Positions 14,279 to 34,906 of a stretch of 64,000 nt of DNA are shown one piece after another. The notes under the pieces were generated by a model. The model did no database searches. It saw only the letters and a list, made by a program, of their open reading frames with translations, and was not told where the DNA came from. A program made the translations under genes and the position numbers. Numbering within the stretch: the first letter of the stretch is position 1; every line of letters starts with the position of its first letter. Source of the stretch: Jezberella montanilacus (GTDB taxonomy: Bacteria; Pseudomonadota; Gammaproteobacteria; Burkholderiales; Burkholderiaceae_B); the NCBI RefSeq assembly GCF_003003055.1, contig NZ_PVTV01000013.1, forward strand, positions 248,001-312,000, given 5' to 3'.

Positions 14279-14368
14279 GGGATTGTCATCAAACTGTAAA
14301 GGAGACTTGACAAGACCCACACCGCGCAGCCGCGCAAACTACCCACAATTTGTCCAGGAGTGCAGTCC

Positions 14369-15574: not shown

Positions 15575-18500
15575 TTAAGGAATTGCTAACACGTTAAGTG
15601 TAGTTGTCAGGTTAGTCGCCTCTGGGCTTTCATACGAATTTTGCGAGCCGTTTACTTTCTTGTCTTTGGCAGTTTGAGAGCTGGCTGTGTTGCCGGTCTC
15701 AACCGTGGATCCTGACACACGACTAGCAACCATTAGCATCGACGTTGAATCCATCCCTCCTTTAACTTCGGGAACTGGAAGCGCGGGGTTAATGCCAACG
15801 CTGGTAAAGCCACCGTTGCTGAAGGTAATTTTGTTGTCTGTATTGGCATCCGTTCTGGTCGCGTATTTTTCGACGCGTGGCGGCGCGACGTTTACTGGTG
15901 TTGGCGCTGGTCCGTTCGCTGCGACACCCACGCGAGGCGCTGCAGGTGTGACTCTGGCTACTGGTGTTGCGGCGCTGCGTGCACCATCAGCGTATTTTCC
16001 GGTGTACTTGGCCGAGGGCGCATTGGCGCTGGGCGCTGCGGGTTTCGCAGCGGTCGCGGTGGTTCCGCTAGCTGTCCCCGTTGCAGTGCCAGTGCCGCTT
16101 GCACTCACTGCTCGCTTACCATCAGCACCCGTTGCGTATTTGCCTGTGTACTTCACGCTAGGCGCGGCGGTGGCACCAGCGGCTGCCGGTTTTGCCGCTG
16201 CGTCGGTTTTAGCGCCACCATCAGCTCTCGCGGCTGTGTCGGTTCTGGCAACAGTCACTTTTTTCCCGTCCGCATCGACAGCGTATTTACCGGTGTATTT
16301 AGCAGAAGGCGCAGCAGCGGTCGGCGTCTCAGCTTTACCAGTTGCGTCTGCTTTAGCAGCCGTCGCCGGTTTAGCGCTTGCCTCAGTTTTCACGCTCGGG
16401 GCTCGTTTGCCATCTGCTGTAGTCGCATATTTTCCGCTGTACTTAACGGTTGGCGCCGCGGGTTGAGGTGCATCAGCTTTTCCGCTACCGCCTTTGGCCG
16501 TGCCAGAAGATCCCGAACCGCTCTTGGTGCCTGTGCCGCCGTTGCCACTTGCAGATGAACCACCCGAGCTTGAGCCACTTGCGCTTGAGCCACCCGATGA
16601 TGAACCGCCGGAGGATGAACCGCCGGAGGATGAGCCGCCCGAGGATGAGCCGCCCGAGCTTGAACCGCCCGAAGAAGAGCCACCTGAGTTCGAACCACTG
16701 GATGACGCGCCCCCTGCGCTTGATCCACCTGCGCTTGAACCGCCAGTAGCTGAGCCTCCACCAGACGCAGCGGCATCCCCGCCACCCGATGAGGTAGCAG
16801 CGGATGAACCACCTGAACTTGAGCCACCTGAGGACGAACCACCCGCACTTGAACTACTTGAACTCGATCCGCTCGATGATGAGCCGCCAGAGGACGACCC
16901 GCTGGACGAGGCACTTGCGTCGCCGCCAGCAGCTGAGCCACTTGAGCTTGAGCCGCCTGAACTTGAACCACCTGAACTTGAACCACCCGATGATGCACTC
17001 GTCTCACCGCCACCAGATGTACCGCTTGAGGTTGCACTACCTGCACTTGAACCGCCAGATGAAGCTGACGCATCGCCCGAAGCGCTGCTTGACGATGAAG
17101 AAGATGTCGAACTAGAGGTGCTTGCAGTGCTAACCGAAGAAGTCGTTGCCGCTACAGGAGTTACTGTCGTCACTGGTACTACCGGCACTACGGGCGGCAG
17201 AACCACTGGGACGGGGGTAAACGTCGCAACAGTCTGCACAACAGGCGTAACAACTGTCGCGACAACAGGGGTCACCACGGTTGTTTCGACTGTTGTAACA
17301 GCAGGAGTGACAACTGTAGTCGTAACTGTAGTGGTGACCGCTGTCGTTGTGGTGGTCACCATGGTCGCAACCACAGTTGGTGTCGTCACGACTTCTTCCG
17401 TGGCAACGACTGGCGCTGCAGTGATGGTATAGGTTGCGTATCCAGCAGAATAATAGTTATCGCCTTCCCTATACTGCGGGTAAATATAGATATTCGAGAG
17501 GGTTGAAGTGATGGTGCCCTGAACCAAACTCGTTGCCGCTTGCACGCTGTTTGAGTTACCGCCTATGGTGCTCGAAAAACGCAAACTGGATAAAACGGCT
17601 GTGTTCGTTGTATTTACACCAAAGCTATAGGTCGAGTAGGTACCGTAAATAGAGATGTTGTTAGCGTTGCTCAGCCACGCAAGCGCCGTCGCTGAATCAT
17701 AAGTAGTGCCTTCCACTTGCGAGTAATTATTCTGGACGCCCAAGTAAGTTGTCGTGGTATTTTGTGCCCGATAGTTAACGTAGCCGTAGCCTAAGCCAGA
17801 CACAAAACTGACTGGTTGACTATAGCTGCCCCCTGCTTGGCCATAGCTTACGTTCGTACCCACAGCCGCATTCGTGCGTGTCAGCCCGATTTGATATTCA
17901 GGTGATGGATAAAGACCCGCGCCGTAGTAACTGGAGGGGGCAGCCATCGAAAGCACCACAATGCCTCCTGTATTGGTCACCGTGCCTAAACTCGAAATCG
18001 TGCCGTACGAACTTGCGTTACCTGCGGCTAAGCCGTAGCCACCTGCCAACTGAATCCCTGAGCTGCCGCTATTGTTAACACTGTTTAGATACAAAATACC
18101 GACAGCCTGAATCACAATACCGGTGCCCGTTCCACCTGTATTGGTGATGGTCCCAGTCGCGTTAACGTAATTGTATAAACCTGAGCTGTTAATCGTAATC
18201 CCGTTGCTCGAGGTCACGCTTTGCATACTGACATTGCCTGCCGAGATGTTCAACCCACCGATGGCAGAGGTTGCCCCAACGGCGCCACCTAAATACACAG
18301 CGTCCTGATGGTAGGTGGATACCGTGTTGATTGACAAAGAACTACCGTTTGGCGCATCAATCGTGCCGTAAAAATTCACACCTCCGCTCACTTGACTGGT
18401 TGAGCTAGTCGTTATGGTTGTATTCGCACTAAGCGTCACGGCGCCAGAGTAAGTCTGGGCCCCAGTTGTAGTAACAGCCGAAGGTAAAACAACATTACTT

Positions 18501-21500
18501 GCATAGACTAATAAGCCGCGCAAAGAATTAGTTGCCCCGACCGCACCGGCAAACGTAACGGTGCCTGAATAGTTGCCCGCTATGACCTGCAGATAGTTTG
18601 ACCCAGTAGAATCGACCGTGCCATTAAACGTAAACGCTGTGTCGGCTCCAAAGGTTAGGAACGTATCCTTGCTGAGGTTGACTGCTCCGGTATAGGATTG
18701 CGAGCCTGTTGTGTAGATTGATGCGGGCAGAGTGATCTGACTTGCAGATACGGTCAGCGCACCCACAGAGCTAATATTTTGCGTAAAGGTCGCTGTCCCG
18801 CTAGTCATTAGACTCAATGAATAGCCTGATCCGTAAATGAATGCGTCTATGCCGATATTGCCCGCGGCGGTGAGAGTCGTAGCGCCCGACAAACTTAACT
18901 GACTATCGACCGAATAGGTTTGTGTCCCGCTCGTGGTGATCGCGGCAGCAAGATTGACGGTGTTGGCACTAACGTTCAACGAGCTAAGCGACTTCAATGC
19001 ACCAGCCGTGCCACTAAAAGTGACGGCGCCTGACCCACTATTAATGACCGTTAGGGATCTTTGTGTGACCAAGGAGTCAACACTACCGTTAAACGTGATG
19101 TCACCACTGTAGGTATTTGTTATGGTCGTATCGGCACCAAGAGATAACGCGCCGCTATAAGACTGACCGCCGGTGGTGGTTACGTTACCGTATAAGGAAA
19201 TAGCGCTGGCAGAAACAGTCAGTGCGCTGAGGGCAGTCGTGCCGCCTATGGCTTGGCTAAAGTAGGCGGTCGAACCGCTTGTCACACTCAAGGCGTAGCT
19301 CGCGTCAGAGTAAGAATTAACTGAGCCGTACAGGTTGACGTTACCCGAAGCTGTCAGCGCCGAATCGGCAGAAAGCACCACGCTTCCAGTTAATGCTAAC
19401 GTCGCGTTGGTGGTGATATTCCCGCCAAGTTGGATTGTTCCCAAGCCCACATTGACATTGAGGCCACCTAAGCGACTTGTCGCGCCGACCGCGCTTAAAA
19501 AGCTTACGAGTCCAGCACTGGAGGTTGTCCCGGTGTTGATCGTCAAGCTGTATGTTCCGGGCGAATCAATCGTCCCGTTAAATGTCACGGCACCATTCGC
19601 GGTTGTGCTGATGGAGGTATTCGCAACAAGGCTGACCGCGCCGCTGTAGGTCTGAGCGCCGGCGGTGGTGATGCTGCCAGCTAAAGTACTAGCACCACTC
19701 ACTGCCAGCGCTGACACGTTGACAGAGTTGGTAATCGCCGCGCCCGAAGCCATCGTCAGTGAAGTCAAGGTAGCTGTGCCCGAATACTGCAGATCAAGCG
19801 TCGCACCTGAGTCGATCGAGACTGCGCTGCTACCGAGAGCGGCAGTCGTGGGTGCCACCAGGGTGCCAGCGCTAATCGTGGTGTTGCCCGAATAAGTGTT
19901 CGCGCCTGTCAAGTCGAGCGTACTGGTTGACAGGGTTTTGCTGAGCGAACCATAGCCACTAATCACGCCAGACAGCGTCTGTGTAACAGAGGATGCATAG
20001 TTAAAAACTGCGCCACTCGCTACGCTAATAGCACCGGCGTAATCGCCACTACCGAGACTGCCCGCACCACTGACCTTTAAGGTACCGCCCGCGATTGTGG
20101 TGTTACCCGTGTAAGTATTAGTGGCTGACAGACTTAACACGCCACTGTTCGTCCCGGTATATCCCTCTGCGCTGTTCAACACCACAGCGGTTGAACCAGA
20201 AATCACTCCGTTCACTGCGCTGGTTGCTGAAGTCGAGTTAATCGTCAGCGTTGAAATATTGGTGGTAGTGCCCCCAATCACAGCAGCGCCTGAACCTGAC
20301 GAGATAGTCAAAGCATAACGGCCTACTGAAGCGACGTTTCCGGAGGCGACCACCACGCCGCTTCCACCATTACCACCATATGTACCCACATAAATGCTCG
20401 AGCCACTGGATCCCCCACCGCCCGTATTCGACGAACCAGAAACACCAGGGCAACCGCTACAAAGTGCTGTGCCACCGCCACCTAAACCCCCTGAATAACT
20501 TACTGCTCCGCCACCACCACCCACGTAACGAGATCCGTCGTAATAATAAATTTCACCAATATTCGAACCGGCGATTGGGTTAACAACACCAATTCCGCCC
20601 ATGGCAGGGCCGTTCTGGCCACGACTAGGGCCTGCGTAGCCACCAGCACCGCCCGCGCCACCACCACCGCCTGGTACCTCACTATAGTAGGAACTTGCGC
20701 CTGCGTAACCTTGGCCTGATGTGCCGCTACCGGCGGTAGAGTAGAAGAAGGAGTAGCCATAATAATAATAGCCACCAGATGATGCACCAGCGCCACCACC
20801 CGAACCACCAGAGCCTGCTCCGTAAGGCTGACCGTAGAGACCCCCTGCGCCGCCACCGAGCGCGGTGTATCCAAAAGCGCTAGAGTTAGACCCGTTACTT
20901 GCACTGGTCTGATACAAATAATCGGTATAGTACGAAGTTGCATTGCTACCACCCGCCCCCACCACAATCGCGTAAGATTGATTTGAGACAGCGACGCTAC
21001 CCGAGAGCACTCCACCGGCGCCGCCTCCGCCACCGTAATAGGCCCCGCCACCGCCACCGCCGCCCACAATCAGATAGCTTAGTGTCGTTCCCGTAATAAA
21101 CGTCCAGCCATAACTTCCGTTGCTGTAAGTAATCGAAGGTGCGTTACTCAGCGCGCTACCTCCAGAAACATAACTACTGCCAGATGCACTGGCCTGATAG
21201 ATCTCCCAGGTAGCACCTGCGTTGGTACTCACTTCCCAAAGGCCCGAGCCTAAGAACTCGACAATCTCGCTCGTCACTGCATTGAGCGTACTCACGTTAC
21301 CAGCGATGCTTACATTACTGTTCGTGGACGTCAGCGACACGTCTGTACCCAGCTTGAGATTGCCGCCGAAGCTTTGAACACCTGTCGTGGTGACATTGCC
21401 ATTTAAGGTTGTAGTCTGGGCGGTGGTATTGCCTAATACCCCGGTGATCGTCAAGCCGCCCAAGGCAGTCGTTGCCCCAACCGCGCTTCCGAACGTCACA

Positions 21501-24500
21501 TCACCGCTGCCGTTTGTAATCGTCAGGGTCTCACTACCTAGCGTGCCGTTCACCGCTGAGCTAAAGGTCACCGAAGCATTGGTGTTCGTAGTGCTGGCAT
21601 ACAAAGTACTCAGTGTCGTATTGGCAGCTAAGGTGACAGCGCCGGTATAGGTCTGCGCACCAGCCGTGGTGATACTACCGCCTAAAGTACTGGTGCCCGT
21701 TACCGTCAAGGCTAAAGTATTCACCGAGTTCGTAATGGCAGCACCTGACGTCATCGTTAATGAGCCGATCGTAAGCGTCCCCGTGTACTGCAAATCAAGC
21801 GTTCCGCCAGAACTGATCGAGACGACCGAGGCATCAAAGGCCCCTGCAGTGCCAATTACCAGCGTGCCGCCGCCAACCGTCGTGCCGCCGCCGTAGGTGT
21901 TTACTCTGGGGAGTTTGACGGTGCCGTTATTGGTTGAATCACCCGAGGTCAAGGCGCCGGTTGAGCCCGAGATCAAACCAGCGATCGTCGCGGTCACGCC
22001 TGTCACCGCTGCTATCTCGTTGGTCGTGCCTGAGCCTAAGATGATGGCATTACTAATTGTGCTGATCGTCGTATCAACCAGTGCACCGCCATTAATAGTG
22101 ACTGATCCCGACGATAAGTTCGTGCCACTTGCACCACCTGACGCGATCTTTAACTGACCTGCACTAATTGTGGTGCCACCTGTGTAAGTATTTGCGCCTG
22201 TCAGGGTTTGCGTGCCCCTTCCGACCTTAACGATAGAAATAGTTGAGGTCGACGATCCGCTCGCTAAATAACCAATGACCCCTGAATAGCTCGTGTCGAT
22301 ATTGACTGCGCCTACTGACAAAGTCGCCGTATTGGTACCAGAATTGAAATTGATATTGCTCGATCCGGACAGCGAACCAAATGAATAAGTCCCGCTGCCG
22401 TTAAGCCAAGCCGTGACGTTATTGAACGTCCAATTTGCGCTGGCACTGGTCGCAGAAGGGGAAAGGAACAAGTTACCCGAGCTGCCGTTTCCACCTGCAA
22501 CAAAAGAGCCGGTAAAGCCACTGTTGTCGCCGTTGAAATAACCTGTCCAGCCAGTGGTCAGCTCATTGAAGTTCAGCGTGCCCGAGCCGGTGATGTTTCC
22601 GTTAATCGTAATATTCTTGTCTACGTTGATTGTCCCGCCTACTTCGGCAATTGTCGACGAGCTGTTCACCGCGATGGGGTTATAGATCTGATAGCCAGCG
22701 GCTGAGTTTTCTAAGGTGCCGCCGTTCAAAGTCAGCGTGCCTGTGCCGAGCGGTCCTGCGCTGCTGCTTGAGGTTTGATTTGACCCGAGGATGATAATCC
22801 CCGTGCTTAACGTGGTGCCACCTGAGTAAGTGTTTGCGCCCGACATTGTTAATGCGCTGGAGGACGTGTCTTTAAGAAGCGAGCCGTAGCCACTGATTAC
22901 GCCGGACAGGGTCTGTGTTGCCGAAGACGCGTATTGAAATACTGCACCGCTAGAAACACTGATGGCGCCTGCATAAGTGCCGCTACCGAGGCTACCCGAA
23001 CCACTCACCTTTAAGGTACCACCCGATACCGTCGTACCGCCTGTGTAAGTGTTCGTCGCTGACAGACTCAACACGCCTGTGTTAGCACCGGTGTAACCCG
23101 CTGCGCTGTTCAAGGTTACCGCAGTCGAACCAGAGATCACACCACTCACCGCGCTCGAGGCTGAGGTCGAGTTAATCGTGAGCGTTGAGAGGTTGGATAC
23201 AGTGCCGCCGATAGAAGTAGAACCGGATCCAGACGAGAGAGTTAGCGCGTATTTCGGAAATTCAGGTGACACCGTATTCACGTTACCCGCAATACTGACG
23301 TTGCTGTTAGTCGAGGCAAGCGATAGATTTGCGTCAAGTGTGACGTTGCCCCCGAAGCTCTGGACGCCTGTGGTCGTCACATTGTCCGTCAAGCTTGTAG
23401 TCTGGGCTGTGCTAGTGCCGGGGACCCCGGTGATCGTTAGGCTTCCCACCGCAGTGGTCGCGCCTACTGTGCTACCGAAGGTCACATTGCCGCTGCCATT
23501 GGTAATCGTGAGCGACTCCGTACCCAGGGTGCCGTTGACAGTTGAACTAAATGTCACTGCTGCGTTGGTGTTGGTGTTGCTCGCATTCAAGGTGCTCAGC
23601 GTGGTATTCGCAGCAATCGTTACCGCCCCGGAATAAGTCTGCGCACCGGCCGTGGTGATACTGCCCGCCAGGGTGCTCGTGCCCGTGACCGTCAAGATCG
23701 ATGTATTCACCGAGTTGGTAATCTCAGCGTTTGACGCCATGGTGAGCGAGGTGATGGCGACTGTACCGGCGTACTGCAGATCAAGCGTGCCGCCCGAAGC
23801 GATCGAAACTGGACCAGAGCCGAAGGCACCAGCATTGCTTATTGCCAGCGTACCGGCACTGATACTTGTACCGCCACCGTAGGTGTTTGCATTAGGTAAC
23901 TGAACAGTCCCAGTATTCGTTGCATCACCGATCGTCAACGCCCCGGTTGAACCCGAGATCAAGCCAGTGATCGTCGCAGTTGCACCCGTTACAGCTGCGA
24001 TCTCGTTTGTTGTACCTGTAGCTAAGGTGATCGCGCTAGTGATCGTGCTTGTGGTCGTATCAACTAGTGCACCGCCGCTAATGGTGACTGATCCCGATGA
24101 GAGGTTGGTCCCGCTTGCACCACCTGATGTCACCTGCAAGCGCCCTGCACTGATCGTTGTGCCGCCTGTGTAGGTATTTGCATAGGACAAGGTCAGCGCA
24201 CTGGTATTTGAAGTGTCTTTGCTCAGCGAGCCATACCCACTGATCAAGCCAGACAAGGTTTGATTGGCGGACGATCCATAATCAAAGAAGGCGCCGCTGG
24301 CAATACTGATCGCACCAGCGTAGTTGCCACTACCGAGGCTACCCGAACCACTTACTTTCACGGTACCACCCGCTACCGTCGTGTTGCCGGTGTAGGTATT
24401 CGTACCTGCCAGGCTCACTACGCCACTGTTAGCGCCGGTATAACCTGAGGCGCTATTGACCACCACCGCAGTCGAGCCTGTGATCGCACCATTGACTGCG

Positions 24501-27500
24501 CTAGTTGCCGAAGTAGAGTTAATCGTCAGCGTTGAAATATTGGTGGTGGTGCCACCAATCAAAGCGGCGCCTGAACCTGACGAGATAGTCAGAGCATAGC
24601 GGCCTATCGAAGTTACGTTGCCAGAGGCGACCACCACGCCGCTACCACCATTACCACCAGCTCCACCACTATCGTGACTGCCGCCGCCGCCGCCACCGCC
24701 AGTGTTCGCCGTGCCTGCTTGCGCACTCGATAAATTTGAGCCGCCGTTCCCACCACCACCAACACCACCAACACCTCCTGATAAATATCCAATATTTGCT
24801 AAGGATCCACCACCACCACCACCCACGTAATAGCTTCCATTATTCAACTGACCGATATTCGATCCAGAAATCTGATTAACGAGACCCACGCCACCTTGTC
24901 CATCGCTGCTATTGCCCGCATTGCCGTCTCCTCCTGCACCACCACCACCACCACCACGGCAAGAACCAGCACAGTTATAGTAGGGATAAGAAGTAAAATC
25001 TCTGCCCTGGCCGCCACTTCCTGCGGTCCCAATGACCGTACCAGCTGGACCCGTGCCCATCACGCCCCCAGCAAATCCGTAAAGGAAATTATGCCACCCG
25101 CCTCCGCCGGCGGCATAAGATACCCCGTTGTACGAGGCAGTAGGTATGTTTAACGCTGACCCACTCGCATCTAAATTATTGCCTTGTGAACCACCGAAAC
25201 CACCACCGTATGCGGTAATTGATCCAAAACTAGAGGCGCCACCAAGTTCATTTTGAATAACGGAAGAAGTCTCAGTCTGACCAGCGGTATTGGCAGTGCC
25301 GCCCTGCCCAACTGTTGCTGAGATCTGCGAGCCACTGGTAATGCTATAGCTAGCGCTATAAAGCACACCACCACCGCCGCCGCCGCCAGCAGCCCTCTGT
25401 GGTTCGGCTAAAGCGCCACCACCGGCACCGCCGCCGCCGACGACCAGAACAGCTAAATTACTGCTCCCGCTAAACGTCCAGCCATAACTTCCGTTGCTGT
25501 AAGTAATCGAAGGTGCGTTACTCAGCGCGCTACCTCCAGAAACGTAACTACTGCCCGATGCACTGGCCTGATAGATCTCCCAGGTAGCACCTGCGTTGGT
25601 ACTCACTTCCCACAGGCCCGAACCTAAGAACTCGACAATCTCGCTTGTCACATAGGTGAGGGTACTGACGTTGCCAGCGATACTTACATTACTGTTCGTG
25701 GAGGCCAGCGATATATTCGTGCCAAGGGCGAGATTGCCGCCGAAGCTTTGAACACCTGTCGTGGTGACATTGCCATTTAAGGTTGTAGTCTGGCCGGTGG
25801 TATTGCCTGATACCCCGGTGATCGTCACGCCGCCCAAGGCAGTCGTTGCCCCAACCGTGCTACCGAACGTCACGTCACCGCTGCCGTTTGTAATCGTCAG
25901 GGTCTCACTACCTAGCGTGCCGTTCACCGCTGAGCTAAAGGTCACCGCTGCATTGGTGTTCGTAGTGCTGGCATACAAAGTACTCAGTGTCGTATTGGCA
26001 GCTAAGGTGACAGCGCCGGTATAGGTCTGCGCACCAGCCGTGGTGATACTACCGCCTAAAGTACTGGTGCCCGAAACCGTCAAAGCCGACGTATTCACCG
26101 AGTTCGTAATGGCAGCACCTGACGTCATCGTCAGTGAGGCTAAGGTGATCGTGCCCGAGTATTGCAGATCAAGGATAGCGCCTGAACCAATCGAGACAAC
26201 GCCCGTGCTGAGGGCGCCGGCGCTGCCAACGGCGAGGGTGCCCGCGCTAATGCTCGTGGCACCTGTGTAGGTGTTCGTACCGGTCAAGGTTTCGGTGCCA
26301 GTACCAAGCTTAGACACAGCAATGGTTGAGGTGGACGATCCACTTGCCAAATAACCGATCACGCCTGAATAACTTGTGTTGGCGTTCAGCGCACCCACTG
26401 ACAAAGTCGCCGTATTCGTGCCTGAATAGAAATTGATATTGCTCGAGCCTGAGAGCGAGCCGAATGAATAAGTCCCGCTGCCGTTAAGCCACGCCGTGAC
26501 GTTATTAAACGTCCAACTTGCGCTGGCACTCGTTGCGGACGGAGCGATAAACAAGTTACCCGCGTTGCCGTTTCCGCCTGCAACAAAAGAGCCCGTAAAG
26601 CCACTGTTGTTGCCATTGAAATAAGCGGTCAGACCAGACGTTAATTCATTGAAATACAGCGTACTTGAACCGGTAATGTTGCCATTAATGATGATGCTTG
26701 ATCCACTCACCTCACCTATGATGGATGAGCCGCTGACCGCGATGGAGTTGTATAGCTGATAACCAGCGGCGGAATTTTTAAGGGTACCGCCATTCAAGGT
26801 CAACGTCCCTGAGCCCAACGGGCCCGCACCGGCAGAGACGGTCTGATTGGATCCGAGGATGATGGTACCTGCGGTCAGGGTTGTGCCACCTGAATAAGTG
26901 TTTGCATACGACAACGTCAGTACGCTTGATGAGGTGTCTTTAACAAGTGAGCCATAGCCACTGATCAAGCCGGACAAGGTCTGATTGGCAGAAGACGCAT
27001 AATCAAAGATTGCACCACTTGCGACACTGATTGAACTGGCATAAGCGCCGCTGCCAAGACTACCCGAACCGCTGATCTTCAAGGTACCGCCCGATACGGT
27101 GGTGGTGCCCGTATACGTGTTGCTAGCTGACAGGCTCAACACGCCCGTGTTAGCACCGGTATAACCTGCCGCGCTATCAAACACTAACGCCGTCGAACCA
27201 GCAATCACCCCACTCACCGCGTTCGCTGCTGAAGTTGAGTTAATCGTTAGCGTTGAGATATTTGAGACATTCCCTGCAATCGAAGTCGAGCCTGAGCCTG
27301 AAGAGAGCGTCAAGGCGTACGAGGGAAAGCTAGGTGACACCGTGTTCACAGCGCCTGCGACAGTAATGCTACTGTTAGTCGAGACCAGCGACAGGCTGGT
27401 GCCGAGCGTGATGTTTCCGCCATAGCTCTGAAGGCCAGCAGTCGTCACGTTGCCCGTCAGGCTTGTCGTCTGTGAGGTGCTGCTACCCGCTTGGCCCGCG

Positions 27501-30500
27501 ATTGTCAGGCTACCCAGGGCCTTTGTTGCCCCCACCGTACCGCCGAACAATACGTTCCCGCTGTTATTGATAATCGTCAGTGCTTCAGTCCCAGCTGTGC
27601 CGTTGACAGTTGAACCAAAACTGATGGCGCTGCTGGTGTTGACAGTGAGGGTTGTGTTGGCGGCGAGGACGACCGCAGCGGAATACGTCTGCGTACCGTT
27701 AGTGGTGATCGTACCTGCCAGGGTGCTGACGCCAGTCACCGTCAAAGCAGACGTGTTCGTTGAGGTAGTGATCGCGGCGCCAGATGCCATTGTCAGTGAG
27801 GCTAGGGTAACTGTCCCCGAATATTGCAGATCAAGCGTTCCGCTAGAGCCAATCGAGACTACGCTTGCACCGGGTACCCCAGCACTAGTGACTGCCAGCT
27901 TGCCTGCACTGATATTAGTGGTGCCTGTATACGTATTCGTGCCTGTCAAAGTTTCGGTGCCAGTGCCAGCCTTAGTCAGGCTCAAAACTTCAGTGCCGTT
28001 GGCATAGCTTGAGTTGGTGATAGCACCGCTGAAGGTACCCGAGCCATTATCGTTACCTAAGGACAAGGTGAGCGCTCGGCCCGCGCCGCCGTCCGGGAAG
28101 TCGACGTTACCGCTTCCGCTTAAGGTGCCAATCGCAATGGTTTGATTGGCAGTGCCATAGAGGCGTAACCAAGTGTTGCTCCCATTCAGGTTGATTGCAG
28201 ACGTGGACGTGATCGAGGCATCCGACGTGGGGTTAAGCCATAAATTTCCGTAATTCGTTAACGTAATCGCGCCGGTAGTCGTGCTACCCGTGAAGAAGAC
28301 CCTTTCGTTATAAAGCCCGCCGTTATTATTATTGCTGGTGATGTTCCAGGCACCTGATCCTGACACATTATTTAGATAAATGGTCGAACAACAGTTACTG
28401 GAAGACTGATAACCATTGGACGTATCAAGGTTGACCGTGCCGTTATTCACAAAATTACCACTTAGTGTGTAATTCTGAAACGCATAACTGGGCGTCACAT
28501 TCAAGGTGCTGCCACTGTTTACGGTGGTAGTCCCAGAGTAGGTATTGCTACCAGTCAGTGTCACAGTCCCTGCTCCGCCAATCGTCAGGCCACTACTTTC
28601 ACCGTATATCGCTGATTGCACGGTTAAAGAGGCATTGGCCGTCGCAGAGATCGTGCTGCTCGACTGAAGCTGCAAGTTGGTCGTCGCAACGCTCACTGCT
28701 GTATTGGCCTTGGCGTTCGTCAGCGTACCGCCATTCAGGAAGATCCAGTTCTGGGCACTGTTATAGCCGTTCAAATCGAAGGTGCCGTTTGAATTAACGT
28801 AGACGATGGGGTTAGTCGCCACTGGCCCACCACTGCTCATGGCTGCACCCAACTGGAAAGTGCCGTAGTTAACGTTGAAAGCGTAAGTCGTGAAAGTGTT
28901 GTTGGCTGAGAAATTGACGGTACCCGTGTTGCTGCTGTTACCAATTTTTAGGTTACCTGGCTCGTCGTCAATGTTTGAAGCATCCGAGATGACGCCCGAG
29001 AACTTCACCAAGCCTGCTGCCGCTGACGCAAAGGTCGCGCCATTACTACCCACATAAATCGGGTTACTGATGGTGACACTAGAGGCCGTGTTTACCAGCG
29101 TACCGCCGTTGATGTTAACGCTACCTGTTGACAGGCTCGAGCCGCTCGCGCCACCTGACGAGACTTGCAAAGTACCTGCGTTAATCGTGGTGCCGCCGGT
29201 AAACGTATTAGCACCCGACAGTGTCAATGTGCTGGACGACGTGTCTTTAAGAAGCGAGCCGTATCCGCTGATTACGCCGGACAAGGTCTGAGTAGCAGAG
29301 GATGCGTAATTGAAGACAGCCCCACTTGCCACACTGACTGCGCCAGCATACGAGCCACTGCCGAGGCTGCCCATCCCGCTGACTTTTAAGGTGCCGCCGG
29401 CTACGGTCGTGTCACCAGTATAGGTATTCGTACCTGACAGGCTTAACACCCCATTGTTGCTGCCGGTATATCCCACTGCACTGTTTAACACTAGTGCAGT
29501 TGTACCCGCAATCGCACTGTTTACTGCACTGTTTGCTGAGGTTGAGTTGATGTTAAGCGTTGTAAGGTTAGAGACCGTGCCGCCAATCGATGCAGCGCCG
29601 GATCCTGACGAGATGGTCAGAGAATAATTGCCAACCAAGGTCAAATTGCCTGAAGCGATGACGGCGCCGCTTCCACCGTTACCACCATAGGGTACGGTAT
29701 CTTGACTTCCGCCGCCGCCGCCACCGCCCGTGTTGGCCGTGCCTGCTGACGCAATGACAGATTGTTTACCACCGTTCCCGCCACCCCCGACGCCCCCAAC
29801 ACCAGCGGCCGAATTGGAGTTTTCTATCGAACCACCACCGCCGCCACCGAGGTAATAGCTGCCATTTTTCAACTGACCGATATTCGATCCGGATATTGGG
29901 TTGAGGATACCCACCCCACCCGCTCCGTTACTGCTATTGCCGTCGTTGCCGTTGCCTCCCGCACCGCCGCCGCCGCCGCCACGCCAAACATAACCGCCGC
30001 AGTAGGAACAACCTTGCCCACCGTTTCCGGCGGTGCCAATAACCGTACCGTCTGGACCTGTCCCCATCACGCCGCCAGCAAATCCATACCGGCTCTGCCA
30101 TCCGCCGCCGCCGCCTGCATAAGATACCCCGTTATATGAAGCGCCCGGTATGTTTAACGTTGACGCGCTCGCGTCTAAATAATTACCGTTTGAACTCTCG
30201 GTACCACCGAACCCGCCGCCATAAGCGGTAATTGATCCAAAACTGGAGGCGCCGCCAATTTGGCTTTGGATGATGGCGGTAGTCTCAGTCTGACCATTGT
30301 TGGCAGTCCCGCCCTGCCCAACTGTTGCTGAGATCGCGGTGCCGCCAGTCACGCTGTAGCTGGCGTTATAAAGGACACCACCACCGCCGCCGCCGCCAGC
30401 GGTTCTCTCGGGCGAGGCATCACCGCCAGCCCCGCCACCACCGACAACCACCACTGCAAAGTTACCGCTTGCCGTTGGTGTCCAGAGGTAACTACCGCTG

Positions 30501-33500
30501 CTATAGGTGATCGAAGGCACTATCGATAAGGCAGTGCCACCAGAAACATAGGTGCTACCGCTTGCGGTTGCGGAGTACTGCTCCCAAGTAGTCCCCGCAT
30601 CCACACTGATTTTCCAGTAGCCGGACCCTAAAAACTCGATGATCCCGGCGGTGAGCGTTGTTTGGGTACTGACGTTACCCGCAATGGTGACGTTACTGTT
30701 GTGCGAAGCAAGCGACGTGTTGCTGCCCAGGGTCAAATTGCCACCGTAACGCTGAACACCGGCGGTCGTGACGTTGCCGTTCAAGCTCGTTGTCTGGGCA
30801 GTGGTATTACCCGACACCCCTGTGATGGTCAGACTACCCAGGGCGGTCGTTGCCCCAACCGTGCTGCCAAAGGTCACGTTACCGCTACCGTTTGTCACCG
30901 TCAGCGACTCAGTGCCATAGCTGCCATCTACCGTTGAACTAAAGCTAACTGCTGAGTTGTTATTTGCAGTCAGCACGGTGCTGTTACCCAGTATCACCGC
31001 ACCCGTGTAGGTTTGTGCACCATAAGTAGTGATGTTCGCGCCCAACGCTATCGTACAGGCATTCAAGCTTAACGATGAGGTACCCGACGTCGCAGTAATC
31101 GCAGCGTTCACTGCAATCGTGCTCGCCGAATCTGTTGTGATCGTCACACTGGTGTTGGTCAGAGCTGACGAAACCGCACTAGCTAGAATGATGCTGGTAG
31201 ATGAGGAGGTGTAAGTATAACTTGAGCCGCTTGAGCTAAAGACAGACCCAGAAGTGGTCGTCCCGGCTGCTGCAATGGTCACGTTACCTGGATCCAACAA
31301 CCAGTTACCGACGCGGCCGTTTACCGCTGAGGTAAGAACTGAGGCACCCGTCAGGTCAAGAAAATTACCCGAGGTCTCGACCAAGCCGCCATTACCTGAG
31401 GTGCCAAAGGCCGATGCGCTGAAGCGCCCATAGGCCCCTAAACCCTGACCCCAATTAAGTACGTTACCACCATCGCCGCTCAGCAACGCGTTGGCGCTCA
31501 GGCTGGACGCTTGGTCAATGACCGTGATTTGGGATGTCGGGACGACAACAATACTGGATAGCCTTGGCAATAACGCGTCTTGTGCTGCGCTACCTGAGAG
31601 GGGATTTGCTTGAAAATCGCGACCGGTGATGATGTTACCGCCGCCGCTTGTACCGTTAGCTTCGAGCGTTGCACCCGAGAGCCCCGTGCTAATCAGACCG
31701 GACTGAGCGATCGTGCCACCCAAACCTGCCCCACCATTGGTCTGAACATAGCCAGTATTTTGATAAGTGCCGGCAGGCGAGCTAAGAATAATTAAACCGC
31801 CGTTATCGCCATTCGCCTGTATTTGTGCTGCAGTGCTCAGACTATTGTTACCCGCGATATAGATCTCGCCGGCTTGACTTGGGTTGGCAGATGCAGAGGC
31901 GGAGGCCGAGTTGGCCGTAATAATGGTCTGGCTATCGAGGGTAGTCGTGTTTGAAATCGTTGCGTTATTGGTAAAGGCAGCGAGTGCCGGTGGAGCCAAA
32001 GTTGAACCACTGCCAGAGGTGTTGTTAATACCAATCTGGATACCGCCACCAGTCGTCGCACCATTGGCGCTAACCGACGAAGCAGCAAGCTGCGTTTGAT
32101 TTAGGCCAGCGATCTGCACCGAACCACCTGACCCGGTCGTGCCATTTGCTGCGACCGTGGTATTGGCCAGCGTCGCGTTACCTGAGGTAGCCGTTACATA
32201 GATTGCACCACCAGTTGTTCCGTTTGCCTGCAGCGTTGCGCCATTAAACAAAACATCATTTGCGGCGACTGCTACGACACCACCTGCTCCCGTCGTACTG
32301 TTCGCACTCACGCTACCTGCCACCGAAACAGGGCCACTATAGGCAGTCAAAGCGACGGAACCAGCAGAAACTGAGGAGGATGAACTTGATACACCGCTTG
32401 ATACAGAGCCTGATACGCTTGATACAGTGCCCGAAACCGCTGCAGAATTTGCGGTAATACTTGAGGTTGAACTTGCTATCAAGTTCTGAGTGGTTTGAAT
32501 ATTGACCGAGCCGCCACTCGCCAATGCAGCCGCGGTCGGCGTTGCAGTCGACGTTGTAGAAGGGGCAATCATGATGTTCATGGCGGCTTGCGAGGTGCCC
32601 GCCACGGTGCCGGCGCCCACATTGATGTAGGTGGTCGTGCCTGTCGCTGCCGCAGCACTTGCCGAGTTAATGGCTGCCGCCAAATTTGTCGACATATTGG
32701 CAGCCGTCAAATTCACGACATTGATATGTGCAACAGCACTCGTGACCGCCGCATTAGCGATGGCCGCATTGGCTGCCGCAGCCGCCTGAGCAGTCGTGAT
32801 CGCCGTTAACAATTGTTGGGCTGAAGCGGGGGTTGGGTTAGCGCTTGAGCCGTTTGAGGATTTACCGGTCGAGGTGTTCGATTGTGAACCCGTGCTCGAC
32901 GAAGAAGAGCCAGTTCCAGTTGATCCAGACCCACTCGATCCTGAGCCACTCGACCCTGTGCCAGATGAGCCTGAGTTGCTCGATCCAGAAGACGAACCCG
33001 ACCCTGAACTACTTGACCCCGATGAGCCGCTCGACGTCGACCCTGAAGTCCCGCTTGAGCTCGTGCCTGACGAGGAGCCCGAGCTACTGCCACTTGCCGA
33101 AACGCTTCCGGTGATCACCGCACTCGTGGCTAAAAGGGTGACACCGCCACTACTGCCGCCGGTACTGGTAACCGATCCACTAGACGTGATGCTTTGTGCC
33201 GTCGCAGTGACTTGGTTGGCACTCGTCACGCTTCCTGCCGCTAAGTTAAGCGCAGTAGCGGTCAGGACGAGACTGTTGGTTTGACCCAGGGTGAGAGAAC
33301 CATTACTTGTCAACGTGCCGGATGCGTTAAGCGTTAAAGTTGACGCGTTCGTGTTTGAGCTACTGGAAGTTGACCCGCTTGAGGATGAAGCAGCGCTTGC
33401 AGCGGCACTGATCGTGCTGATCACTGCGCCGGCAGCGACGGTCAAATCACCCTGCACGGCGACCGTCACGTTGGCATTCGCCAAAGCCGCCGACAACGCA

Positions 33501-34906
33501 CCGGCAGTGCTGGCGTCAATCGTCAACCCGTCAGGATCAAGCAGCCAATTACCTTTAACACCCAAGGGGGCCGAGGCGTTAACCAGAATCGCTGGCGATA
33601 TCGTCAGCTTGCCTTGAGAGCTGGTTTCGATGTTACCGCCGTTGCCACCCAACTTGCCGCCCGTCGCATTGAAAGTGCCCGCAACGGTGGTCTGTTTGCT
33701 TGACCAGACGTTAATCTGACCGCCATTACCAATACTGGTTGAGGACACATCTACCGTCGCACTTGACTCAACGGTGACAGTCTTAGCCAAATTCTGTGCT
33801 TGAACGTTGCCGCGGGTACCGTCGGCGTTCTGGGTGTAGCTAACCGCAGTCGTCCCGATATTGACAGTGCCGCCATTGGTTGCACCTTTCGCCGTTGTCT
33901 TGGAGCCTTGCGCCAAAACCACATTATTGCCTGCGATAGTGACCTGGCCACCGGTCGTCGTGGCGGAATCCGCACTCACCGTCGCACTTTGATTCACGGT
34001 ATCGCCGGATAGAAACACCTTGCCGCCAGACACCTTGAAACCGTTGGCGCTGATCGTGCCGGTGTTGTTGATTACGGAAGCGCGCAAATCTGAGGCGGCG
34101 TTGGCAGCAATGAGCACTTGACCGCCATTCACTTGAATTAACCGTTTATTGGCGATCAGTGACTTGACCGCCGAGGCGTCCACGGTGAAGCTCAGGAGTT
34201 GTCCATCATCAAAATTCAAAGTCACCTGTTGGCCCGATACCAAGGCAATTGCGTTGTTACCCGATAAGGTCGCGCTCAGGACACCTTCATTTTTTACTTC
34301 GGGTGCCATCAAGGCGATATAGCCATTGGCATTGTTAACCGTAATTTTGCCCTTGTTGACGACCTTGCCCGTGCCATTACCCGAATAGGTGTTGCGGCCA
34401 TTCATGTAATCCGAGTCTTTGATGTCCATCGTGGTGGCGGTGATCCCACCCGTATTGACCTCAGCCCCTTTGCCGAACACAACCCCATTGGGATTGACGA
34501 AAACGACTTGACCGTTCGAGTTGACGGCGCCATTGATCATTGACTTTGACGCGCTGTTGACACGATTTAGCGTGGAGGCGTTTGCGTCAGGCTGGTTGAA
34601 ATTGACGGTCGCGTTTTTACCGACGTCAAAAGAGTTCCAGTTAACAACCGCCTTTTGTGTGGTTTGGTTGACGTTAAGGGTATTGCCGTTCTGCGTAATA
34701 GTCGCTTGCCCTGCGCTGACGGTACCACCCGTGGGCAGCGCAGTGGGTGCAGGCGAGGCTGCATAAGTGCTCGCAGCTAGAACAAAAAGCCCCAATACTT
34801 TGGCTACATCAACCAGTGTTTTTAATGGCCGCAAAAACCCCCAACCCCCCGTTTTATGGGGGTTGTGGCATAACACAACTTTTGGATAAGCTAAGTTTGT
34901 GTTCAA
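15575..34906 (-). CDS. Giant TpsA exoprotein: filamentous-haemagglutinin-like adhesin with autotransporter-type repeats and three glycine-rich modules
   Basis: 6443 residues. Residues 1-49 form an extended signal peptide ending in GLFVLAASTYA. Residues 50 to about 330 are the TPS secretion domain with NWNSFDVG (89-96), NRVNS (114-118) and NPNGVVFG (138-145). A Ser/Gly-rich linker lies near 606-676. The repeat body, about 1100-5500, holds 16 motifs of the type NTYTGxTTxxxGTL, as in the passengers of type V secreted proteins. Five super-units share the GNVTTxGVQ and LTINSTSA blocks; glycine-rich modules lie near 1423-1753, 3090-3434 and 4546-4863. A Val/Thr/Pro stalk (about 5830-5926), a Ser/Gly tract (5930-6123) and four KYxGKYA repeats (6160-6306) end the protein. 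There are only ten cysteines. The start is TTG; a stop at 34931-34933 and no in-frame ATG lie upstream. Its function, adhesion or aggregation, is inferred from the family. It is exported by the adjacent TpsB. Confidence 0.92.
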   Translation of the reverse strand: MNTNLAYPKVVLCHNPHKTGGWGFLRPLKTLVDVAKVLGLFVLAASTYAASPAPTALPTGGTVSAGQATITQNGNTLNVNQTTQKAVVNWNSFDVGKNATVNFNQPDANASTLNRVNSASKSMINGAVNSNGQVVFVNPNGVVFGKGAEVNTGGITATTMDIKDSDYMNGRNTYSGNGTGKVVNKGKITVNNANGYIALMAPEVKNEGVLSATLSGNNAIALVSGQQVTLNFDDGQLLSFTVDASAVKSLIANKRLIQVNGGQVLIAANAASDLRASVINNTGTISANGFKVSGGKVFLSGDTVNQSATVSADSATTTGGQVTIAGNNVVLAQGSKTTAKGATNGGTVNIGTTAVSYTQNADGTRGNVQAQNLAKTVTVESSATVDVSSTSIGNGGQINVWSSKQTTVAGTFNATGGKLGGNGGNIETSSQGKLTISPAILVNASAPLGVKGNWLLDPDGLTIDASTAGALSAALANANVTVAVQGDLTVAAGAVISTISAAASAASSSSGSTSSSSNTNASTLTLNASGTLTSNGSLTLGQTNSLVLTATALNLAAGSVTSANQVTATAQSITSSGSVTSTGGSSGGVTLLATSAVITGSVSASGSSSGSSSGTSSSGTSGSTSSGSSGSSSSGSGSSSGSSNSGSSGTGSSGSGSSGSGSTGTGSSSSSTGSQSNTSTGKSSNGSSANPTPASAQQLLTAITTAQAAAAANAAIANAAVTSAVAHINVVNLTAANMSTNLAAAINSASAAAATGTTTYINVGAGTVAGTSQAAMNIMIAPSTTSTATPTAAALASGGSVNIQTTQNLIASSTSSITANSAAVSGTVSSVSGSVSSGVSSSSSSVSAGSVALTAYSGPVSVAGSVSANSTTGAGGVVAVAANDVLFNGATLQANGTTGGAIYVTATSGNATLANTTVAANGTTGSGGSVQIAGLNQTQLAASSVSANGATTGGGIQIGINNTSGSGSTLAPPALAAFTNNATISNTTTLDSQTIITANSASASASANPSQAGEIYIAGNNSLSTAAQIQANGDNGGLIILSSPAGTYQNTGYVQTNGGAGLGGTIAQSGLISTGLSGATLEANGTSGGGNIITGRDFQANPLSGSAAQDALLPRLSSIVVVPTSQITVIDQASSLSANALLSGDGGNVLNWGQGLGAYGRFSASAFGTSGNGGLVETSGNFLDLTGASVLTSAVNGRVGNWLLDPGNVTIAAAGTTTSGSVFSSSGSSYTYTSSSTSIILASAVSSALTNTSVTITTDSASTIAVNAAITATSGTSSLSLNACTIALGANITTYGAQTYTGAVILGNSTVLTANNNSAVSFSSTVDGSYGTESLTVTNGSGNVTFGSTVGATTALGSLTITGVSGNTTAQTTSLNGNVTTAGVQRYGGNLTLGSNTSLASHNSNVTIAGNVSTQTTLTAGIIEFLGSGYWKISVDAGTTWEQYSATASGSTYVSGGTALSIVPSITYSSGSYLWTPTASGNFAVVVVGGGGAGGDASPERTAGGGGGGGVLYNASYSVTGGTAISATVGQGGTANNGQTETTAIIQSQIGGASSFGSITAYGGGFGGTESSNGNYLDASASTLNIPGASYNGVSYAGGGGGWQSRYGFAGGVMGTGPDGTVIGTAGNGGQGCSYCGGYVWRGGGGGGAGGNGNDGNSSNGAGGVGILNPISGSNIGQLKNGSYYLGGGGGGSIENSNSAAGVGGVGGGGNGGKQSVIASAGTANTGGGGGGGSQDTVPYGGNGGSGAVIASGNLTLVGNYSLTISSGSGAASIGGTVSNLTTLNINSTSANSAVNSAIAGTTALVLNSAVGYTGSNNGVLSLSGTNTYTGDTTVAGGTLKVSGMGSLGSGSYAGAVSVASGAVFNYASSATQTLSGVISGYGSLLKDTSSSTLTLSGANTFTGGTTINAGTLQVSSGGASGSSLSTGSVNINGGTLVNTASSVTISNPIYVGSNGATFASAAAGLVKFSGVISDASNIDDEPGNLKIGNSSNTGTVNFSANNTFTTYAFNVNYGTFQLGAAMSSGGPVATNPIVYVNSNGTFDLNGYNSAQNWIFLNGGTLTNAKANTAVSVATTNLQLQSSSTISATANASLTVQSAIYGESSGLTIGGAGTVTLTGSNTYSGTTTVNSGSTLNVTPSYAFQNYTLSGNFVNNGTVNLDTSNGYQSSSNCCSTIYLNNVSGSGAWNITSNNNNGGLYNERVFFTGSTTTGAITLTNYGNLWLNPTSDASITSTSAINLNGSNTWLRLYGTANQTIAIGTLSGSGNVDFPDGGAGRALTLSLGNDNGSGTFSGAITNSSYANGTEVLSLTKAGTGTETLTGTNTYTGTTNISAGKLAVTSAGVPGASVVSIGSSGTLDLQYSGTVTLASLTMASGAAITTSTNTSALTVTGVSTLAGTITTNGTQTYSAAVVLAANTTLTVNTSSAISFGSTVNGTAGTEALTIINNSGNVLFGGTVGATKALGSLTIAGQAGSSTSQTTSLTGNVTTAGLQSYGGNITLGTSLSLVSTNSSITVAGAVNTVSPSFPSYALTLSSGSGSTSIAGNVSNISTLTINSTSAANAVSGVIAGSTALVFDSAAGYTGANTGVLSLSASNTYTGTTTVSGGTLKISGSGSLGSGAYASSISVASGAIFDYASSANQTLSGLISGYGSLVKDTSSSVLTLSYANTYSGGTTLTAGTIILGSNQTVSAGAGPLGSGTLTLNGGTLKNSAAGYQLYNSIAVSGSSIIGEVSGSSIIINGNITGSSTLYFNELTSGLTAYFNGNNSGFTGSFVAGGNGNAGNLFIAPSATSASASWTFNNVTAWLNGSGTYSFGSLSGSSNINFYSGTNTATLSVGALNANTSYSGVIGYLASGSSTSTIAVSKLGTGTETLTGTNTYTGATSISAGTLAVGSAGALSTGVVSIGSGAILDLQYSGTITLASLTMTSGAAITNSVNTSALTVSGTSTLGGSITTAGAQTYTGAVTLAANTTLSTLYASTTNTNAAVTFSSAVNGTLGSETLTITNGSGDVTFGSTVGATTALGGVTITGVSGNTTGQTTTLNGNVTTTGVQSFGGNLALGTNISLASTNSNVSIAGNVSTLTYVTSEIVEFLGSGLWEVSTNAGATWEIYQASASGSSYVSGGSALSNAPSITYSNGSYGWTFSGSSNLAVLVVGGGGAGGGALAEPQRAAGGGGGGGVLYSASYSITSGSQISATVGQGGTANTAGQTETSSVIQNELGGASSFGSITAYGGGFGGSQGNNLDASGSALNIPTASYNGVSYAAGGGGWHNFLYGFAGGVMGTGPAGTVIGTAGSGGQGRDFTSYPYYNCAGSCRGGGGGGAGGDGNAGNSSDGQGGVGLVNQISGSNIGQLNNGSYYVGGGGGGSLANIGYLSGGVGGVGGGGNGGSNLSSAQAGTANTGGGGGGGSHDSGGAGGNGGSGVVVASGNVTSIGRYALTISSGSGAALIGGTTTNISTLTINSTSATSAVNGAITGSTAVVVNSASGYTGANSGVVSLAGTNTYTGNTTVAGGTVKVSGSGSLGSGNYAGAISIASGAFFDYGSSANQTLSGLISGYGSLSKDTSNTSALTLSYANTYTGGTTISAGRLQVTSGGASGTNLSSGSVTISGGALVDTTTSTITSAITLATGTTNEIAAVTGATATITGLISGSTGALTIGDATNTGTVQLPNANTYGGGTSISAGTLAISNAGAFGSGPVSIASGGTLDLQYAGTVAITSLTMASNAEITNSVNTSILTVTGTSTLAGSITTAGAQTYSGAVTIAANTTLSTLNASNTNTNAAVTFSSTVNGTLGTESLTITNGSGNVTFGSTVGATTAVGSLTITGVPGTSTAQTTSLTDNVTTTGVQSFGGNVTLDANLSLASTNSNVSIAGNVNTVSPEFPKYALTLSSGSGSTSIGGTVSNLSTLTINSTSASSAVSGVISGSTAVTLNSAAGYTGANTGVLSLSATNTYTGGTTVSGGTLKVSGSGSLGSGTYAGAISVSSGAVFQYASSATQTLSGVISGYGSLLKDTSSSALTMSGANTYSGGTTLSTGIIILGSNQTSSSSAGPLGTGTLTLNGGTLENSAAGYQIYNPIAVNSSSTIAEVGGTINVDKNITINGNITGSGTLNFNELTTGWTGYFNGDNSGFTGSFVAGGNGSSGNLFLSPSATSASANWTFNNVTAWLNGSGTYSFGSLSGSSNINFNSGTNTATLSVGAVNIDTSYSGVIGYLASGSSTSTISIVKVGRGTQTLTGANTYTGGTTISAGQLKIASGGASGTNLSSGSVTINGGALVDTTISTISNAIILGSGTTNEIAAVTGVTATIAGLISGSTGALTSGDSTNNGTVKLPRVNTYGGGTTVGGGTLVIGTAGAFDASVVSISSGGTLDLQYTGTLTIGSLTMTSGAAITNSVNTLALTVTGTSTLGGSITTAGAQTYTGAVTLAANTTLSTLYASTTNTNASVTFSSAVNGTLGSETLTITNGSGDVTFGSAVGATTALGGLTITGVLGNTTAQTTTLNGNVTTTGVQSFGGNLKLGTDVSLTSTNSNVSIAGNVSTLNAVTSEIVEFLGSGLWEVSTNAGATWEIYQASASGSSYVSGGSALSNAPSITYSNGSYGWTFITGTTLSYLIVGGGGGGGAYYGGGGGAGGVLSGSVAVSNQSYAIVVGAGGSNATSYYTDYLYQTSASNGSNSSAFGYTALGGGAGGLYGQPYGAGSGGSGGGAGASSGGYYYYGYSFFYSTAGSGTSGQGYAGASSYYSEVPGGGGGAGGAGGYAGPSRGQNGPAMGGIGVVNPIAGSNIGEIYYYDGSRYVGGGGGAVSYSGGLGGGGTALCSGCPGVSGSSNTGGGGSSGSSIYVGTYGGNGGSGVVVASGNVASVGRYALTISSGSGAAVIGGTTTNISTLTINSTSATSAVNGVISGSTAVVLNSAEGYTGTNSGVLSLSATNTYTGNTTIAGGTLKVSGAGSLGSGDYAGAISVASGAVFNYASSVTQTLSGVISGYGSLSKTLSTSTLDLTGANTYSGNTTISAGTLVAPTTAALGSSAVSIDSGATLDLQYSGTATLTSLTMASGAAITNSVNVSALAVSGASTLAGSITTAGAQTYSGAVSLVANTSISTTANGAVTFNGTIDSPGTYSLTINTGTTSSAGLVSFLSAVGATSRLGGLNVNVGLGTIQLGGNITTNATLALTGSVVLSADSALTASGNVNLYGSVNSYSDASYALSVTSGSTAYFSQAIGGTTALSALTVSASAISLYGNVTTTGGQSYSGALSLGADTTITNTYSGDITFNGSVDSLVTQRSLTVINSGSGAVTFSGTAGALKSLSSLNVSANTVNLAAAITTSGTQTYSVDSQLSLSGATTLTAAGNIGIDAFIYGSGYSLSLMTSGTATFTQNISSVGALTVSASQITLPASIYTTGSQSYTGAVNLSKDTFLTFGADTAFTFNGTVDSTGSNYLQVIAGNYSGTVTFAGAVGATNSLRGLLVYASNVVLPSAVTTTGAQTYSGAVTLSANTTITTSSTSQVSGGVNFYGTIDAPNGSSLSINTVSTYHQDAVYLGGAVGATSAIGGLNISAGNVSMQSVTSSNGITINSSGLYNYVNATGTITNTGGTGTGIVIQAVGILYLNSVNNSGSSGIQLAGGYGLAAGNASSYGTISSLGTVTNTGGIVVLSMAAPSSYYGAGLYPSPEYQIGLTRTNAAVGTNVSYGQAGGSYSQPVSFVSGLGYGYVNYRAQNTTTTYLGVQNNYSQVEGTTYDSATALAWLSNANNISIYGTYSTYSFGVNTTNTAVLSSLRFSSTIGGNSNSVQAATSLVQGTITSTLSNIYIYPQYREGDNYYSAGYATYTITAAPVVATEEVVTTPTVVATMVTTTTTAVTTTVTTTVVTPAVTTVETTVVTPVVATVVTPVVQTVATFTPVPVVLPPVVPVVPVTTVTPVAATTSSVSTASTSSSTSSSSSSSASGDASASSGGSSAGSATSSGTSGGGETSASSGGSSSGGSSSGGSSSSGSAAGGDASASSSGSSSGGSSSSGSSSSSSSAGGSSSGGSSSGGSSAATSSGGGDAAASGGGSATGGSSAGGSSAGGASSSGSNSGGSSSGGSSSGGSSSGGSSSGGSSSGGSSSGGSSASGSSSGGSSASGNGGTGTKSGSGSSGTAKGGSGKADAPQPAAPTVKYSGKYATTADGKRAPSVKTEASAKPATAAKADATGKAETPTAAAPSAKYTGKYAVDADGKKVTVARTDTAARADGGAKTDAAAKPAAAGATAAPSVKYTGKYATGADGKRAVSASGTGTATGTASGTTATAAKPAAPSANAPSAKYTGKYADGARSAATPVARVTPAAPRVGVAANGPAPTPVNVAPPRVEKYATRTDANTDNKITFSNGGFTSVGINPALPVPEVKGGMDSTSMLMVASRVSGSTVETGNTASSQTAKDKKVNGSQNSYESPEATNLTTTLNVLAIP
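15980..16450 (-). repeat. Four C-terminal KYxGKYAxxADGKR-type repeats in the adhesin
   Basis: The motif KYxGKYA followed by xADGK(R/K) or a variant recurs at about 16430, 16285, 16140 and 15990, every 145-150 bases (about 48 residues), separated by Ala/Lys/Thr-rich linkers. A degenerate fifth copy (EKYATRTDANTDN) sits near 15865. The basic, regularly spaced motif could bind a polyanion or the cell wall, but no family was recognised. Confidence 0.75.
16587..16691 (-). repeat. Tandem 15-bp repeats coding for GGSSS-type units
   Basis: Seven consecutive 15-bp units encode GGSSS or close variants; the two at 16602-16631 are identical and the others differ at a few bases. Similar degenerate units continue to about 17000. 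The copy number is free to change without a frameshift. Confidence 0.8.
20320..21270 (-). repeat. Glycine-rich module 3 of the adhesin
   Basis: About 317 residues beginning with LWEVSTNAGATWEIY (Asp-box-like), then a beta-rich lead-in and the glycine-rich body LIVGGGGGGGAYYGGGGGAGG, ending GGNGGSGVVVASG. It carries one cysteine pair, ALCSGCPG. Its body is shorter and more diverged than modules 1 and 2, and rich in Tyr. Confidence 0.8.
21101..21766 (-). repeat. Long direct repeat, copy 2 (partner at 25475-26140)
   Basis: About 665 bp aligned without gaps to 25475-26140, offset exactly 4374 bp. By eye the copies agree at well over 90% of positions, and 21576-21699 is identical over 124 bp. The copy covers the start of glycine module 3 and the super-unit upstream of it. 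Confidence 0.85.
24610..25640 (-). repeat. Glycine-rich module 2 of the adhesin
   Basis: About 344 residues. It opens with LWEVSTNAGATWEIY, has long glycine runs (AVLVVGGGGAGGGALAEP, CRGGGGGGAGGDGNAG, GGVGGVGGGGNGG) and ends GGNGGSGVVVASG. The cysteine pair is CAGSC. It is closely similar to module 1 throughout, including the shared core SFGSITAYGGGFGG. Confidence 0.82.
25475..26140 (-). repeat. Long direct repeat, copy 1 (partner at 21101-21766)
   Basis: The partner of the copy at 21101-21766. It is at the same position relative to glycine module 2 as the other copy is to module 3. The 4374-bp offset is 1458 codons, so exchange between the copies keeps the frame. Confidence 0.85.
29640..30640 (-). 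repeat. Glycine-rich module 1 of the adhesin
   Basis: About 330 residues. It opens with YWKISVDAGTTWEQY, where SVDAGTTW fits the Asp-box pattern SxDxGxTW exactly, and continues with FAVVVVGGGGAGGDASPE, glycine runs and GGNGGSGAVIASG. The cysteine pair is CSYC. It sits between the GNVTTAGVQ block and the LTISSGSGAA block of the first super-unit. Confidence 0.82.
34833..34865 (-). promoter_or_regulatory. G-tract hairpin in the adhesin signal-peptide codons
   Basis: Read on the coding strand, an 8-bp perfect stem CAACCCCC / GGGGGTTG with an 8-base loop is followed by GGGG and TTTTT. The region holds a G6 and a G5 tract two bases apart. It lies in codons 15-25 of the adhesin. It could act as a terminator-like attenuator or a slippage site; this is inference from shape. 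Confidence 0.4.

Follow-up and report, generated by a model that had tools for sequence, protein, structure and literature searches.

The 64,000-nucleotide stretch of Jezberella montanilacus DNA analysed here (GCF_003003055.1, NZ_PVTV01000013.1, positions 248,001–312,000; the window) contains on its reverse strand a giant gene for a TpsA-type exoprotein, with the gene for a TpsB transporter directly upstream (Table 1). Three glycine-rich modules of a domain family shared with phage proteins are inserted into the repeats of this exoprotein.

A TpsA exoprotein with glycine-rich inserts

The exoprotein begins with a two-partner-secretion (TPS) domain, also matched by the NPXG adhesin N-terminus profile TIGR01901 (E 7.8e-22); the adjacent TpsB has POTRA and ShlB/FhaC barrel domains, and the passenger is largely autotransporter-type beta repeat, with profile matches to PATR in each half and to TIGR02601. 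Judged by these domains, it is a two-partner-secretion (TpsA) fibre, and its export by the adjacent TpsB is predicted. Its N-terminus is hydrophobic by sequence, with a signal-peptide family absent among the Pfam families listed for it, and a search of the genome gave one TPS domain. The TPS and Gly_rich_2 matches emerge when pieces of the protein are scanned singly by hmmscan, as large fragments mask them.

Five repeat units can be recognised in the passenger, each with a GNVTT.G[VL]Q-type block (at 30775, 27451, 25771, 23383 and 21397 for units 1–5) and an LTINSTSA-type block (at 29557, as LNINSTSA, then 27250, 24529, 23182 and 20248). An earlier note on this DNA (the original prediction) had listed the same five pairs, at positions that agree with ours to within 21 bases, and had placed glycine-rich modules between the blocks of units 1, 3 and 5 only, which is what we find; units 2 and 4 have an 'NTVSPxFPx' spacer of about 9 residues at the very point where the others hold the module. 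The Pfam search that it proposed identifies PF21722 (Gly_rich_2) in all three, at 47.3, 44.7 and 45.9 bits for modules 1, 3 and 5 against a curated cut-off of 24.3, so that the modules are not chance matches. A profile of the module cores, built from TPS modules including the three of this protein, matches the 6443-residue protein exactly three times. The match to phrog_2295 takes in, in each case, most of a lead of about 55 residues ahead of the glycine-rich part, which the original prediction had not described and which seems to belong to the module.

Table 1. Features of the exoprotein locus; positions are those of the window.
Feature	Position	Strand	Evidence
TpsB transporter (POTRA_2 + ShlB)	35116..36873	-	ShlB E 8.4e-26, POTRA_2 E 6.8e-13
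TpsA-type exoprotein, 6443 residues, TTG start as listed	15575..34906	-	ORF, TPS domain, PATR, TIGR02601
TPS secretion domain PF05860, residues 57-307	33986..34738	-	E 1.7e-35, 123.6 bits
Module 1 (unit 1), lead + Gly_rich_2 core, residues 1421-1760	29627..30646	-	PF21722 E 3.4e-12; phrog_2295 E 1.7e-27
Bare unit 2, spacer NTVSPSFP at module position	27323..27346	-	sequence
Segment X of unit 2, residues 2661-2890	26237..26926	-	184/234 aligned columns identical to unit 4
Module 3 (unit 3), lead + Gly_rich_2 core, residues 3089-3436	24599..25642	-	PF21722 E 2.1e-11; phrog_2295 E 3.1e-22
Bare unit 4, spacer NTVSPEFPK at module position	23252..23278	-	sequence
Segment X of unit 4, residues 4017-4250	22157..22858	-	alignment to unit 2
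Module 5 (unit 5), lead + Gly_rich_2 core, residues 4547-4863	20318..21268	-	PF21722 E 9.1e-12; phrog_2295 E 4.2e-28; AlphaFold2 model; fold matches

The TPS domain, the TpsB partner and the beta repeats are common to this protein and to classical TpsA adhesins (FHA type), which differ in that phage-type glycine-rich heads are serially inserted here. We know of no described TpsA protein with such a serial insertion, and a literature search confined to titles and the starts of abstracts, with subscription journals mostly outside its coverage, returned no account of glycine-rich heads in TpsA proteins.

Fold and relatives of the module

AlphaFold2 modelled module 5 with high pLDDT over most of the core once viral relatives were added. 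Both the model and its fold matches have a TNF-like sandwich with a glycine-rich loop lattice, as in the Pam3 gp24 type, and the predicted fold of the module is a TNF-like beta sandwich bearing a knob of glycine-rich loops. Together with Gly_rich_2 and phrog_2295, this bears out the kinship with phage tail and surface domains that the original prediction had suggested. Among the closest known systems are the Pam3 cyanophage fibre gp24 (PDB 7ypx, 7yfw), which is a trimeric phage fibre, whereas the module is a loop insert in a secreted bacterial repeat protein, three to a chain, and the tail-tip protein of mycobacteriophage Bxb1 (PDB 9d93 chains Qa, Qb), which is part of a phage virion. The polyglycine sandwich of Salmonella phage S16 gp38, whose type is defined by a three-layer lattice of polyglycine II helices, is alike in its glycine-rich motifs, the hypervariable loops between them and its place on a beta-helix, and is absent among the structure matches listed for the module. 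The TNF-like, glycine-rich extracellular domain of ALK/LTK belongs to animal receptor kinases, and the similarity is at a level that the tool flags as common. Module 3 had no match when compared with the sequences of solved structures. In the two phage-fibre reports, the glycine-rich lattices are described as held by backbone hydrogen bonds and the loop tips are the proposed receptor-binding part (PMC9608196, PMC6851490); the Pam3 fibre is assembled with a chaperone (PMC9608196), and the S16 gp38 domain has 73 residues at the phage fibre tip, with hypervariable loops between glycine-rich motifs, borne on a beta-helix (PMC6851490).

Viral contigs scanned with a motif of the domain C-terminus gave at least 80 loci, and the profile from the TPS modules matches 98 frames on 69 of the 80 listed (E below 1e-10). 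In 96 of these 98 frames the last domain stops no more than 40 residues short of the frame's end; 89 are 290–660 residues long, and there is one domain in 85 frames, two in 12 and three in 1. The PF21722/phrog_2295 viral proteins carry the same domain by sequence, but near the end of such frames and not within a giant repeat fibre. Four viral contigs (L123, L137, L139 and L193) have three motif matches each, about 1.4–1.5 kb apart among the matches listed, and in each contig two or three frames have the glycine-rich domain at their end or at most 35 residues from it; these are possible runs of paralogous tip proteins. Module 3 had no match in phage records, nor did a 1200-residue piece with units 3–4 in plasmids. 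A search with lead plus module gave 119 pattern stretches in genome contigs and 71 in viral contigs, none confirmed, and a 17-row alignment gave 590 and 600, likewise none confirmed, perhaps due to low-complexity masking of the glycine runs.

PF21722 was also searched in overlapping sets of 32 genus, 250 family, 399 order, 369 class and 398 phylum genomes, with matches in 2, 11, 21, 12 and 24 of them (the own genome counted each time). Six genomes have the match in frames of at least 2900 residues: the own one, G093 (16,305 residues), G744 (18,106), G691 (29,206), G631 (2960) and G385 (3509, filling its contig); the frames that hold the remaining matches are 111 to 1908 residues long. A TPS domain is in the same frame in five of the six, and none was found in the sixth genome, G385, which is 79% complete and where the frame is incomplete. 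The core profile counts 3 modules in the own protein, 6 in G093 and 10 in G744 (one weak in each), 4 in G691, 2 in G631 and 1 in G385, and the stretches matched by Pfam Gly_rich_2 number 5 for G093 (first 3999 residues read), 7 for G744 (first 3900), 4 for G691 (3500) and 2 for G631. All five relatives have PATR repeats. In G631 (L112, C1:38001-52000) the lead is like that of the window and the insertion point is, by eye, the same, while in G093, G744 and G691 the modules enter the PATR unit elsewhere, with a lead of another kind. A PA14/GLEYA-type domain, often carbohydrate-binding, lies between the two glycine-rich modules in the TPS stalk of G631. The open frame of G691 (L111, C1:290001-305000), with its TPS domain and four modules near the start, is to our knowledge among the longest bacterial frames. 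Within the genus, where many assemblies are fragmented, modules in a TPS frame are limited to the own genome among the 32; some TPS domain is present in 15 of them (own included), and the other PF21722 match, in G022, is in a 321-residue frame.

Order and divergence of the modules

The units alternate in more than the presence of the module (M). A segment of about 230 residues, X, is shared by units 2 and 4 with an alignment score of 935. Elsewhere it scores at best 270 (after unit 1), 204 (after unit 3) and 182 (after unit 5), where the highest of 100 shuffles reaches 173, and units 3 and 5 have no close copy. A 417-residue piece around unit 4 aligns to the unit 2 stretch over query residues 2–417 (77%) and only in fragments elsewhere in the protein, and most of units 1–2 aligns to units 3–4, a large additional stretch following module 1. 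To the right of the module position, the nearest relative of unit 2 is unit 4 (83%); to the left, unit 4 is nearer to units 3, 5 and 1 (79, 78 and 77%) than to unit 2 (66%), and the closest pair is units 3 and 5 (103/112 residues, 490/539 in DNA). The aligned sequences thus support a two-unit period M-X-M-X-M, the pattern that a block duplication would give, in a form that is not clean, and later exchange between units would explain the mixed likeness of the flanks. In G744 (L110, C1:284001-303000) the gaps between modules run 346-237-134 and then 348-238-134, a repetition in threes that marks block duplication in that protein as well. In a quick tree, several modules of G093 and G744 form pairs.

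The original prediction was of a long fibre with three regularly spaced knobs. Folded knobs on a long repeat TpsA protein are supported; regular spacing as a design of its own is unsupported, since duplication of a two-unit block could leave the observed spacings of 1668 and 1458 residues and since spacing in the other proteins varies from 287 (a value that depends on one weak match) to 1248 residues.

Modules 1 and 3 are similar (248/333 aligned residues identical). The leads of modules 3 and 5 are identical (55/55), and their cores are unlike, agreeing in 69/105 glycine-containing columns and 43/132 of the others. Glycine content is nearly equal in the three cores (34.4–34.7%), and tyrosine amounts to 11.4% of the module 5 core, compared with 4.5% for module 1, 4.3% for module 3 and 3.2% for the other passenger sequence sampled. 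Identical leads with unlike cores led us to consider outside acquisition of the module 5 core. It is not supported, as modules 1, 3 and 5 form one group (SH-aLRT 97) in the quick tree, where the branch to module 5 is long and 70 of the 129 inner branches are left open; pairwise identity points the opposite way (52.6% to a G744 module versus 45.0% to module 3).

Six of the 10 cysteines in the 6443 residues form close pairs, one per module (1633/1636, 3312/3316 and 4816/4819), that of module 5 apparently on a different loop from that of modules 1 and 3. CxxC is also present in both G631 modules, and the pairs are possibly small disulfide loops in the knobs.

Possible role and genomic setting

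What might such modules do? We consider it probable that the protein is a TpsA stalk with phage-type receptor-binding knobs, likely ligand-binding, in an array that grew by two-unit duplication. The passenger would form a long stalk of autotransporter-type beta repeats, three units of which would carry, at one repeat loop, a complete phage-type receptor-binding domain. Its TNF-like sandwich would probably be formed in part by the conserved lead, with glycine-rich loops stacking from it into a knob whose tips vary. Projecting from the stalk, these knobs would most likely be sites of ligand binding, several per fibre, with surface glycans or the matrix of partner cells as possible targets. We infer binding, its ligand and an advantage of several heads, the first two by analogy with the phage relatives. 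The alternation of module-bearing and plain units most likely arose when a two-unit block was duplicated and units later exchanged sequence locally; in units 3 and 5 the stalk and the lead would have stayed, or been kept, nearly identical as the cores diverged. Two points weigh against this reading: the lead was modelled with low confidence, and a clean two-unit duplication does not fit the left flank of unit 4. The 1-3-5 order, being one of 10 possible arrangements of three modules over five slots, is weak evidence taken alone.

An unlikely alternative is that the modules are structural and serve as spacers, bumpers or side contacts, packing adjacent fibres together or preventing the stalks from aggregating. 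The hydrogen-bonded glycine lattices and the near-equal glycine content of the cores would suit such a role, whereas the tips proposed to bind receptors in the two phage structures described and the tyrosines of module 5, which a pure spacer would not need, argue against it. Somewhat less likely still is a functionless by-product, in which a module entered one unit by chance and was spread by duplication of the repeats. The alternation is compatible with that, as is the lack of modules in TPS frames across the 31 further genus genomes searched; yet the reading frame is intact through all three copies, the own modules are diversified rather than broken, and four other TPS proteins have module arrays. 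That the glycine runs are disordered linkers is very improbable, in spite of their low complexity, the lack of DSSP-assigned helix or strand in most of the modelled core and the poor model from the three window sequences alone, given the high pLDDT after addition of viral relatives, the Pfam domain identity and the ordered lattices of solved homologs; the original prediction had proposed structure prediction to look for such linkers, and on the AlphaFold2 model, which does not show them, we rejected this reading.

The knobbed-stalk reading would bring together two well-studied machines, the adhesins of two-partner secretion and the receptor-binding glycine-rich tips found on phage fibres, and a similar design appears in other bacteria, where the number of knobs reaches about ten. 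Should the heads bind, this would supply a concrete binding part for giant TPS proteins whose target is unknown, and a single fibre would be a natural array of heads, allowing specificities to be compared from one copy to the next. More tentatively, and with some doubt on our part, giant TPS fibres in general might be multivalent display stalks, with heads at a fixed loop, stalk and base kept alike by duplication or conversion and tips diversified per copy, giving several specificities per fibre as a bacterial counterpart of phage tail-tip variation.

Window positions 14193–37027 hold a bestrophin-like gene, TpsA and TpsB between a frame that we take to be hpf-like (14360–14695) and ptsN. Matches to lptB and ptsN are 641–710 bases apart in all six genus relatives compared (of 30 others with an hprK match), and in none of the six does the stretch between them match TpsB, the N-terminus of TpsA or the bestrophin-like gene. 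Because this gap is short and without these genes, the locus looks like an insertion at this site.

At its C-terminal end the exoprotein has a Ser/Gly-rich stretch (window ~15600–17100, reverse strand; residues 5950–6400), with 31–35% glycine and 42–52% serine in 100-residue windows, followed by several copies of a KYTGKYA-type repeat. Together they may be a surface-retention tail.
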